Position numbers and translations under genes: made by a program. 33,843 nt of DNA from Nitrososphaeria archaeon (GTDB lineage Archaea; Thermoproteota; Nitrososphaeria; Nitrososphaerales; JARVJX01), in NCBI GenBank assembly GCA_029775995.1, contig JARVJX010000007.1, positions 1-33,843 on the forward strand, in the 5' to 3' direction. Each line of letters starts with the position of its first letter. Position 1 is the stretch's first letter. Below are positions 22,684-27,187 of this stretch, in pieces. Below the pieces are notes generated by a model. That model saw only the letters and a list, made by a program, of their open reading frames with translations, had not been told where the DNA came from and made no database searches.

Positions 22684-22928
22684 ATAAGAAGAAGGCCATT
22701 TTATTATAATTACTTTAAATTAGTGAATAAAGCTTGGTTTAAAGAAGGTTTTGGATTGGATATAGATTGGCTACGTATAATTGATGTGATTACTAAGGGA
22801 ATAAGAATGTACGAAATAATAGAGCAAGAGTTAATGAAAAACCTATTTCAGAAGTAGGTTTAGATAATAAAAATAGGAATTATAGAGAGTAGAAAATAGA
22901 GTTGAGCAAAAGTTAAATCTGGAGTAGT

Positions 22929-23070
22929 GGGGACGGTGGGATTTGAACCCACGATTTTCGGGTCACCGCAGCTCCAATTTCACATCATCTTTAATCAGCT
23001 GACCCAAAACTTCTGGAGCCCCTAGCGGCACCCAAAGGGCTGACGCCCTGCCTTACTAGACTACGTCCCC
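22929..23070 (-). tRNA. tRNA-Trp(CCA) with two introns
   Basis: Exons 23070-23042, 23021-23013 and 22963-22929 join to GGGGACG TA GTCT AGTAAGGCA GGGC G TCGGG CTCCAGA CCCGA AAATC GTGGG TTCAAAT CCCAC CGTCCCC, a fully paired cloverleaf with anticodon CCA. Intron 1 is 20 nt at 28/29; intron 2 is 49 nt at canonical 37/38. Confidence 0.9.
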
Positions 23071-23136: not shown

Positions 23137-23823
23137 TTGAAGTTTCTTGTTAGTGTTACCGATAAGGTTGAAGCCCTTAGAGCCTATAGAGGAGGAGCAG
23201 ATATAATAGATATTAAAAATCCTAAGGAAGGCTCTGTAGGTGCAAACTATCCTTGGATAATAGATGAGATAGTTAGTTCTCTTAAGGGAAAGGTAGAGAT
23301 CAGTGCAACTATAGGAGATTTAAATTTCTTACCTGGAATGGCTTCTTTAGCCTGCTATGCAGCTTTAAAATTAAAGGTAGATTATGTTAAAGCTGGTTTC
23401 TATAAATTAAACCTTGAGCAAGCAAAGAGTTTGGCTAAAAGTCTATCAAAGACCCTTGAAATGAATAAAGAGGCTAAGTTAGTTATGGTCAGTTTTGCCG
23501 ATTATAAAGAGTTTAGGGGCTTATCCTACTGGAAGCTTTTAGAGATAGCTAAAGACTACTTTGATGGGTTTCTTTTAGACCTTAAGCTTAAGGGTGAAAG
23601 ATGCCTATTCGATTATCTGAAAAAAGAAGAGCTGATTAGGATCAGAGATTTCTGTAGAAATAATTCTTTAATTTTTGGTATGGCAGGAGGCTTAAAATTC
23701 GAGCACTTAAAAATGGTGAAGGATTTAGAGCCTGATGTATTTGGGGTTAGGAGAGGAGTTTTGGATAAGTTAAAGGTTAGTGAAAGCTTGGTAAGAACTT
23801 TTATTAAAAGCATTAGAAGTTAG
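23137..23823 (+). CDS. mfnB: (5-formylfuran-3-yl)methyl phosphate synthase (MfnB, former DUF556)
   Basis: GGADIIDIKNPKEGSVGANYPWII and SATIGDLNFLPGMASLA motifs. TTG start. Confidence 0.88.
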   Translation: MKFLVSVTDKVEALRAYRGGADIIDIKNPKEGSVGANYPWIIDEIVSSLKGKVEISATIGDLNFLPGMASLACYAALKLKVDYVKAGFYKLNLEQAKSLAKSLSKTLEMNKEAKLVMVSFADYKEFRGLSYWKLLEIAKDYFDGFLLDLKLKGERCLFDYLKKEELIRIRDFCRNNSLIFGMAGGLKFEHLKMVKDLEPDVFGVRRGVLDKLKVSESLVRTFIKSIRS

Positions 23824-24055: not shown

Positions 24056-25766
24056 ATTAGTAGATTTAGAAATCTTTAACTTTAGAGGAATAGAGCAGGA
24101 AGAGATAAAGCTCAATCCCTTACATGTATTTCATGGTCCTATGGGTAGTGGAAAAACATCAAGGCTCTTAGCAATTCTCTTCGCATTAACGGGCTCTACT
24201 CTTGCTGGGTTAACCTTGGATGATATGATAAATCTTAACTCTGATAGAATGGTGGTTAGAGTAGGTATAGAAAAGGATGGGAAATATCATAAAGTTGAAA
24301 GAAGTAAGAGGAGAGGTTATTCATCCTCTTTAAAATTTTTAGGAGAGCCCCTTACCCTTGCTATAGATGAGAATATCTATATAGAAGGTAGGAAAATATC
24401 CGAAATATTCTTTGGGGCTCCAAAGGAAAAGATGCTAAAACTGGATGCTCTATTAGGTTTATCCGATTATAACTTAGCCTTACAAGAAATAACTACAGCT
24501 CCCATAGATAAAAAGTTAGAGGAATTTAAGAAGCATAAGGAGGATATGCTTAGAGCCCTTGAGTATGAGGAGAAGACTAAAAAATTAGAGGAAGAAATAA
24601 AGAACATAAACTCAAGGTTAGATGAAATAAATTCAGCTCTAAGTAGTGAGTTGAATTCAAAAGCTTGGGCAGAGGAAGTAATTAAAAGGGCTTCTGAAAG
24701 TATAAAAATTAAAGGAGAGATAGAGAGCAAAAGGGAATTAATAAAAAGTTATAAAGGACAGCTGGATTCTATTCCTAAGTATTCAGAAAACTTAGAAGAA
24801 GAGCTTAACGAATTAGAATCTAGGTATAAGGCTATGCAGAGAAGAAAAACCTATCTAGAAGGTTCCTTTCAAATTTTTGATCTCGAATCTATAGATAAAA
24901 TTACCAACTGCCCTTTATGCTATTCTCCCTTATCAAAGGAAAAGGTTAGTGAGTTTAAACAGTATTATAACGAATATAAGGAACTGATCTTAAAGTCTAG
25001 AGATTTAGAGGAAGCTTTATCTATAAAAAGAAAAGAAGTGGAGCAGGCTAGAAAGGATAAAGAGAGAGCAAAATGGCTTTATTCTCAAATTTTAAGCTTG
25101 GAAGCTGAGATATCTAGCAGGAGTTTTGATGTTATAAATGAAGAGGATATTAATAGAGCGAAGCAAGTAATGGATAGATTTGATAGATTAAAAAAGGAAA
25201 ATGAGGAGCTTAAATTCAAAAAAAGGACTTTGGAGGAGCAGATAAGGGATTATACTTCTTTAAAGGAAAAATTTTCTGTTTACAAAACCTATAATTTAGA
25301 TAAAAAGTTAGAGGAATTAGAAGCTTTAAGAGATAAAATAGTTAGGATAAAAAAAGCTTTAGAAGAGGCTCTAAGGGAAATCAGAGAAGAAGAGCTCTTA
25401 AAGTTAAGAGATTCCTTCAGGAGAGCCTTTAGAAAGATCTATACCTATGAAAAATTTAAGGATGCAGACTTTGATCTCATAAATTATAAGGGAAGGGAAG
25501 TTTTAACCCTTAAGGCTAAAGTTAATGAAAGCTGGATAAGAGCTGATCAAATGAGCACTGGAGAAACGGTAGCTTTAAGTTTTGCCCTTCTATTTTCCAT
25601 AAATCAGATTGAAAGTCCTTCCATCTTACTATTGGATGAGCCTGAAGAAGGTTTAGATGATGAGGGTATAAGAGGATTAGCAAAAGTATTAAAAGATCTA
25701 TCAAACAATACACAGATTTTAATAGCTACAAGAAATAATCTTTTAGCGGAGCTTCTTAAAGGATGA
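24051..25766 (+). CDS. Rad50/SMC-like coiled-coil ATPase with CxxC hook
   Basis: Walker A HGPMGSGKTS, CPLC hook mid-protein, signature MSTGE, Walker B SILLLDEPEEGLDDEG. The frame extends upstream of the track's ATG (24141) to ATT 24051 (IRLVDLEIFNFRGIEQEEIKLNPLHVFHG), preceded by GGAGGTG at 24037-24043. Confidence 0.85.
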   Translation: MRLVDLEIFNFRGIEQEEIKLNPLHVFHGPMGSGKTSRLLAILFALTGSTLAGLTLDDMINLNSDRMVVRVGIEKDGKYHKVERSKRRGYSSSLKFLGEPLTLAIDENIYIEGRKISEIFFGAPKEKMLKLDALLGLSDYNLALQEITTAPIDKKLEEFKKHKEDMLRALEYEEKTKKLEEEIKNINSRLDEINSALSSELNSKAWAEEVIKRASESIKIKGEIESKRELIKSYKGQLDSIPKYSENLEEELNELESRYKAMQRRKTYLEGSFQIFDLESIDKITNCPLCYSPLSKEKVSEFKQYYNEYKELILKSRDLEEALSIKRKEVEQARKDKERAKWLYSQILSLEAEISSRSFDVINEEDINRAKQVMDRFDRLKKENEELKFKKRTLEEQIRDYTSLKEKFSVYKTYNLDKKLEELEALRDKIVRIKKALEEALREIREEELLKLRDSFRRAFRKIYTYEKFKDADFDLINYKGREVLTLKAKVNESWIRADQMSTGETVALSFALLFSINQIESPSILLLDEPEEGLDDEGIRGLAKVLKDLSNNTQILIATRNNLLAELLKG

Positions 25767-27187
25767 GCTTCGAGAGGCAAAGGGTAATAGGAGTAATTGC
25801 CAGCGAGTCTAGTGAAACGGAAGCTAGAGTTATACTAAACTATAAAGAAGAATTAAATATCAAAACCGAAGATTTAGTTGTAGTTGAAAATCTTATTGGA
25901 GGTAAAGTTTTAGCCGTTTTAAGGGGAGGAAGAGGTTTAAATGAAAATCTTAAGACTGGAGGTTATCATCCAGCTTTAAGTTATGCAAGAATAGGAGGAA
26001 ATCCAAGTAAAGCTAAAGAAAGCTATGATTTTAGGCTATTGGTTATTGGAGAGATTACAGAAGAAGGTTTAGTTCAGAATAAGAAGATTCTATCACCAGG
26101 CTCTCCTGTTAGGCTCTTTAGTGAAAAAGATGATCCTATGGTTTATTTATCAAAAAATAAAGGCTTCACTTTGGGTTACTATGAAGGAAGACCCAATTGG
26201 AAAGTTCCTGTAAATATTGATTTTATTCCCTATCATATAGGAGTCTTTGCCACTACTGGAGGAGGAAAGTCTTACCTTGCAAGATACGAGATAATACCCT
26301 TACTAAAAAAGGCTGGATATGGTGTATTGATCTTAGATTGGAAGGGTAGAGATTATGCTCCTTACTTTAAGGACGTGATTAGTATAGCTGATATAGCCCT
26401 TGATACTGAGAGTGTTAAAGACTACCTAATTAGACTCTTTGGAAACTTTGGATACTCTACAGATACAAATCTCCCTAGGCAAGCTTTAGAAGCTTACCTT
26501 GAGAAAGAAGAATGGAGAGGTCTAGGTGAGAAAGACCTCAAAGATAGTTTAAAGGAAGGGATTATAGAAGAAATAAAGCTTTTAAAGGATAGAAGAAGTG
26601 AAGAGGCTATAAATAGGGTTGAATTGGCCTTTAAGAAAATTCAGAGTAGAGAGTTATCCTTCATCTTAGGTATAAAAACTCCTGAAAACGTTCTTGAAGA
26701 GGTTAGAGAAAAGGGAATAGTGGTTATTAACATGAAGAAGGCAAGTAAGCATATTAAGCTACTTTGCTTTTTGGCCCTTGGTAAGTACTTAATGGATATG
26801 ATGTATAACGATGAAGACCCAAATCTAGCTTTGGTCATAGACGAAGGTCCTCAATACTGTGGATTCAATCCTATAGGAATTGAGAAGGAAACAACAGATA
26901 TAATCATAGATATGTGCGCTTTAGGTAGAAGCCACAAATTATGTATATGCTTGCTATCTCAAGGAATAGCTGGAGAAATTGGTATAAATGCAGCTGTGAG
27001 AAGGAATCTTAATACTCAACTCATTGGGAAGATTCATCCCTTGGATATGAATGAAGCATCAAATTGGCTCTCTCCTTATAATATAGATCCAAAGTTCTTG
27101 CTCTCTTTACCTCCTGGACATTTTTACTTTATGGGCAGTATGAATCCTTCTCCTATGCCTCTATTAATTACTTTTGCCATAGGTTAA
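25763..27187 (+). CDS. HerA-like (DUF87) hexameric ATPase
   Basis: HAS-barrel-like N-terminus, Walker A FATTGGGKSYLA, Walker B LALVIDEGP, Arg-finger region AAVRRNLNTQLIGKI; ATGA overlap with the Rad50-like gene. Confidence 0.88.
   Translation: MSFERQRVIGVIASESSETEARVILNYKEELNIKTEDLVVVENLIGGKVLAVLRGGRGLNENLKTGGYHPALSYARIGGNPSKAKESYDFRLLVIGEITEEGLVQNKKILSPGSPVRLFSEKDDPMVYLSKNKGFTLGYYEGRPNWKVPVNIDFIPYHIGVFATTGGGKSYLARYEIIPLLKKAGYGVLILDWKGRDYAPYFKDVISIADIALDTESVKDYLIRLFGNFGYSTDTNLPRQALEAYLEKEEWRGLGEKDLKDSLKEGIIEEIKLLKDRRSEEAINRVELAFKKIQSRELSFILGIKTPENVLEEVREKGIVVINMKKASKHIKLLCFLALGKYLMDMMYNDEDPNLALVIDEGPQYCGFNPIGIEKETTDIIIDMCALGRSHKLCICLLSQGIAGEIGINAAVRRNLNTQLIGKIHPLDMNEASNWLSPYNIDPKFLLSLPPGHFYFMGSMNPSPMPLLITFAIG

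Follow-up and report, generated by a model that had tools for sequence, protein, structure and literature searches.

A candidate one-kink-turn box C/D guide in the tRNA-Trp intron of Nitrososphaeria

Could the second intron of an archaeal tRNA-Trp gene guide the 2'-O-methylation of the very tRNA from which it is removed? The window (the whole stretch of 33,843 nucleotides of Nitrososphaeria archaeon DNA that was analysed) raises this question, as the intron in it combines box-like motifs with stretches antisense to its own tRNA. The precedent is the box C/D guide in the intron of euryarchaeal pre-tRNA-Trp, reportedly described for Haloferax volcanii and Pyrococcus (sR50) by Clouet d'Orval (2001), Bortolin (2003) and Singh (2004). 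In that guide the C'/D' motif serves position 39 of the tRNA and the C/D motif position 34.

The tRNA-Trp(CCA) gene lies on the minus strand (22928–23070; Rfam tRNA, 42.7 bits) and is interrupted twice; ARAGORN in its default bacterial setting did not detect it. Exon 1 (23070–23042) is followed by the 20-nt intron 1 between positions 28 and 29 (23022–23041), exon 2 (GGGCTCCAG, 23021–23013), the 49-nt intron 2 at 37/38 (22964–23012) and exon 3 (22963–22928), which starts with ACCCGA. After removal of both introns by hand, the acceptor, D, anticodon and T stems all close. Intron 1, as read from the sequence, has a relaxed splice motif (GGCG/CGCU, with cuts between UC and A and between AG and G) and occupies the same position in relatives. 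When the structure of the entire precursor is predicted, intron 1 (UUUGGGUGCCGC) forms pairs with GCGGUGACCCGAA and so competes with the position-39 guide, discussed below, for the same stretch of the 3' exon, which may have a bearing on splicing order. As to the neighborhood, a 4-HFC-P synthase gene (PF04476; window 23137–23823) is divergent from the tRNA gene with its start 67 bp away, and window 24141–27187 holds genes for an SMC/Rad50-like ATPase and, after it, a HerA helicase (PF01935), likely a DNA-end repair pair.

Intron 2 contains CTGA, the candidate box D' (22995–22998), and 6 nt after it ATGATGT (22988–22982), with the UGAUG core of the candidate box C' at 22983–22987; these motifs had been pointed out in the preliminary description, and their minus-strand coordinates and spacing are as given there. 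That description had also judged the intron degenerate, a view at odds with the comparison of 108 distinct introns (69 from the class Nitrososphaeria and 39 from elsewhere), in which boxes and geometry proved conserved across class and phylum. All 69 class introns have either CUGA (56) or AUGA (13) as box D', and UGAUG or UGAUU as box C'. The two boxes form a kink-turn across the loop 22994–22988, and its pairs vary in concert: D' position 1 and C' position 5 form C-G in 56 of the 69, A-U in 11 and A-G in 2, while the loop-closing pair, between the nucleotide after D' and the nucleotide before the 2-nt bulge, is C-G in 52, U-A in 13, U-G in 3 and C-A in 1. The loop between the boxes is often a GNRA in this class, and the D'/C' stem is longer in families f4, f10, f11 and f12. 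The kink-turn pair C-G has changed to A-U in f10 and again outside the class, in the Thermoprotei MAG L204. In other classes D' is relaxed to NNGA, yet is followed by a stem that forms a genuine helix (CC...GG). Co-variation of this kind marks a kink-turn, which is the motif bound by L7Ae, and the intron would accordingly be predicted to bind this protein. For Sulfolobus acidocaldarius, one tRNA is reported as enriched in L7Ae RIP-Seq (PMC5539422).

Upstream of D', the ten nucleotides TTTTGGGTCA (23009–23000; guide nucleotides 2–11) pair at all ten positions, one of them a G-U, with UGACCCGAAA (22965–22956), which spans the 3' exon–intron junction. The N+5 rule thereby selects C39 (22962) as the predicted 2'-O-methylation target, just as the preliminary description had proposed. 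At least 8 of the 10 positions pair in 31/69 class introns and in 27/39 of the other set. In a swap test uncorrected for kinship, actual guides and targets pair better than swapped ones, with z 9.2 overall and z 7.5 for the two intron-end positions alone, which are unconstrained by the mature tRNA. At these same intron-end positions, L017 and L018, which are congeneric species, are distinguished by a compensatory change from G-C to U-A (UGACCC/GGGUCA versus UUACCC/GGGUAA); this within-genus case, together with the spread over families, answers in part the caveat of relatedness. In alignment A1, 90.2% of the structure cells are paired versus 28–43% when slid, and the covariation is 0.231 versus 0.107 in shuffles. 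Among introns selected only on pairing at 38–41, guide nucleotides 2–11 are paired and nucleotides 1 and 12 unpaired. The guide to 39 has been lost, with the kink-turn and the 34 arm retained, in at least four lineages (f9, genus g28 of f14, f22 and most of f10).

On the other side of the kink-turn, UGGAGC (22971–22976) is complementary to G31–A36, as had been noted earlier, and is nearly invariant among related introns. Its nucleotide 22974 lies opposite the wobble nucleotide C34 (23016), the predicted second target, and 9 nt from position 5 of box C'. This distance is exactly 9 nt in 99/107 introns and stays so while intron length varies between 49 and 88 nt, with 12–41 nt separating the 5' splice site from D' and 4–20 nt lying between the arm and the 3' splice site. 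With a canonical C'–D guide, typically of 12 nt, the N+5 rule would select this very site. Numbered from the start of the would-be box D, nucleotides 2–11 of the arm pair, 1 and 12 are unpaired and the target falls at 5. Beyond G37 the arm co-varies with intron positions +1, +2 and +3 (z 7.3, 5.8 and 5.2) and ends at +4; in most relatives it spans the 5' splice junction. The phylum-wide geometry would suit a guide to C34, but the arm of the window has only 7 pairs, none contiguous beyond G37, with no box D to anchor it. GCGG (22966–22969) stands at the would-be box D start and at the same time supplies the intron strand of the central helix of the bulge-helix-bulge, pairing with CUCC at 32–35 with a mismatch at C34; 18 other Nitrososphaeria introns have GGAG or GGGG at this place. 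We considered whether UGGAGC is itself the strand of the splicing helix and rejected this on account of families with a second GGRG copy beside the 3' splice site: because 38/107 introns have their own separate copy (GGAG or GGGG at −6 to −3, the bulge-helix-bulge site), UGGAGC is distinct from the splicing helix. A search for a stand-alone C34 guide sRNA (pattern TGATGN{4,14}TGGAGNNCTGA) yielded none in the genome of the window and scattered matches only elsewhere.

Both arms thus obey one rule, with pairing at guide nucleotides 2–11 and the target at 5, which splicing needs alone would hardly account for. This pairing window agrees with the 10-bp guide limit attributed to box C/D RNPs (Yang et al. 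2016, as cited in PMC7089733). What the comparison itself shows is the conservation, the co-variation, the geometry and the presence of intron nucleotides within the pairing. We looked among the introns for a terminal C/D motif, linear or circular, and found none: a UGA at the C site together with a GA at the D site, at the canonical outer positions, occurs in 0/108 introns, and only the Hadesarchaea MAG L205 has a C-like GUGAAGA. In vitro, efficient methylation was reported to require symmetric C/D and C'/D' RNPs, going by the titles of Tran 2003 and Rashid 2003 as cited in PMC3608112.

How, then, does this intron relate to the known guides? It shares with the euryarchaeal pre-tRNA-Trp guide the position at 37/38, the antisense stretches to both 39 and 34 and a pairing that takes in intron nucleotides; in the euryarchaeal case this participation of the intron means that modification precedes splicing (PMC2584109, PMC7994747). 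It differs in lacking terminal C and D boxes, in its length (49 nt versus 103 nt in H. volcanii) and in its target at 39 (C39 versus U39). As a positive control, the tRNA-Trp intron of the Euryarchaeota MAG L211 matches the Rfam model RF01133 (sR3) with 51.8 bits and displays the full canonical set of boxes (C, D', C' and D), its CUGA standing one nucleotide after UGGAGC, where the window reads GCGG. The same model has no match to the window or to 20 additional introns sampled from class and phylum, and none of the Rfam models tested finds the intron guide. With canonical bipartite archaeal box C/D sRNAs the intron has in common the D'/C' kink-turn or K-loop, the N+5 rule and the 10-bp guide at 2–11; unlike these, which combine two kink-turns with two guides, it has only the D'/C' kink-turn. 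Given the single kink-turn and the lack of an sR3 match, we set it apart as a variant rather than a member of the known type. The earlier suggestion that it performs the same trick as the euryarchaeal intron finds good support, in its core, in the conservation, the compensatory changes and the 39/34 geometry. The sequence comparison makes it most likely that the intron works like the euryarchaeal guide and is its homologue. In the open-access literature, no account of such a guide from Thaumarchaeota or Crenarchaeota was found; the supplement of PMC2584109 is stated to list 'at least 29 archaea', and given the open-access scope, specialists may already have known of a form from one of these groups.

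A covariance model of 92 positions, built from 22 introns with their exon flanks, matches 182/300 genomes of the order (E ≤ 1e-4) and 170/398 genomes of the phylum (E ≤ 1e-6), as well as the Thermoprotei and Hadesarchaea MAGs mentioned above. A clear exception is family f7, whose tRNA-Trp gene, located by BLAST with the joined exon sequence, has a short intron at the same place without the kink-turn. AmoA is present in families f2, f3, f7 and f9 and was not detected in f1, the family of the window (Nitrososphaerales).

We consider it likely that the intron is a reduced, one-kink-turn version of the euryarchaeal guide, directing methylation of C39, and probably of C34, before splicing. In this scheme the D'/C' kink-turn would bind L7Ae and carry both antisense arms, the 5' arm pairing across the 3' splice junction so as to bring guide nucleotide 5 opposite C39, and the 3' arm pairing with the anticodon loop so as to bring C34 to the equivalent point; the kink-turn would then recruit Nop5–fibrillarin for the 2'-O-methylation of C39, and probably C34, of the unspliced pre-tRNA-Trp. 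An unspliced substrate would be expected because the pairing takes in intron nucleotides on both sides, the conclusion also drawn for the euryarchaeal guide (PMC2584109). Most likely, the guide molecule would act on another pre-tRNA molecule: action in trans is probable because the arms cover the strands needed for the splicing motif in cis, and in vitro work on H. volcanii favours one molecule acting on another (PMC2584109, PMC7994747). The terminal C/D kink-turn would have been lost, with the splicing motif occupying its place in the window intron. Two introns assembling together, or the splicing motif holding the outer ends, may allow one kink-turn to be active, and the action of the guide may be coupled to splicing.

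S. acidocaldarius is a member of the same phylum as the organism of the window. Cm34 has been observed in its tRNA-Trp, and is the sole mark seen named for it in PMC7668247, which fits the guide model; the same paper gives the predicted C39 methylation as undetected in P. furiosus tRNA-Trp, which calls for caution regarding the 39 arm.

These points also bear on two other readings. In the first, which we hold to be unlikely, the intron guides no methylation and is a device for folding or timing, in which L7Ae and the arms mask both splice sites until the precursor is ready to be spliced. As such a mask would allow, each duplex crosses a splice junction and varies in concert with intron nucleotides, loss of the 39 guide does leave the kink-turn and 34 arm in place, and no terminal C/D motif is present; however, the exact 2–11 window, the lack of pairing at nucleotides 1 and 12 and the constant 9 nt to C34 are the geometry of box C/D RNPs and needless for a mask, and the Cm34 of S. 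acidocaldarius likewise speaks against it. The second reading, on which only the 34 arm guides modification while the 39 arm aids folding or is a relic still pairing by chance, strikes us as rather improbable. The P. furiosus result and the repeated loss of the 39 arm favour it, whereas in the window it is the 39 arm that is intact (10/10) and the 34 arm that is the weaker, and the compensatory changes maintain the pairing with 39.

The preliminary description had further suggested that the full guide might exist only once the excised intron circularises, its joined ends supplying the C and D boxes. The window junction GCGGTG+AAGT does yield a C-like GTGAAGT, and GTG+A[A/G]G occurs in 30/69 Nitrososphaeria introns, but only lineages whose intron ends in GTG have this junction, which reads GGA+AGGT, GAA+TGGT, GAA+AACC and others elsewhere and is unconserved in other families, and the supposedly D-like CTGC is not conserved either; moreover, the terminal TG is already accounted for by its pairing with the guide, and we regard a circle-only guide as very improbable. 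That this is an ordinary tRNA intron with accidental boxes and pairings can be dismissed, for although CTGA followed by RTGATG appears in 0.7% of 200,000 dinucleotide-preserving shuffles of intron 2, a 10/10 guide to 39 upstream of a CTGA appears in 0/200,000, and the phylum-wide conservation and co-variation refute it.

If the one-kink-turn guide is real, it would carry a textbook device of Euryarchaeota into a second phylum, a hint that the device is ancient in Archaea, and would be a naturally occurring guide lacking the second kink-turn, which in vitro studies had deemed necessary. Only tentatively do we go further and propose that a single-kink-turn box C/D guide functions across much of one phylum, with the splicing motif replacing the terminal C/D motif and the methylation of C34 and C39 tied to the timing of splicing. 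Two questions become testable in this manner, namely whether half a box C/D RNA can do the job in vivo and whether a link exists between the order of splicing and the wobble methylation of tRNA-Trp. The Cm34 of S. acidocaldarius tRNA-Trp may also find its explanation in an intron guide.

Several tRNA-Trp genes in the comparison show peculiarities of their own. In L106 (G013:C1:1007800-1008060), a degenerate second copy lies about 1.7 kb from the working gene, with the 5' exon absent, the T arm broken and an intron 2 identical to that of the working copy; it may be what is left of an attachment site or else a guide-only copy. In L116 and L209 the variable region holds a further intron-like insert in addition to the guide intron, and in L351–L356 (f7) a second insert lies inside the T loop. 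Finally, in L085 and L097 (f9), A37 replaces G37 beside the anticodon.
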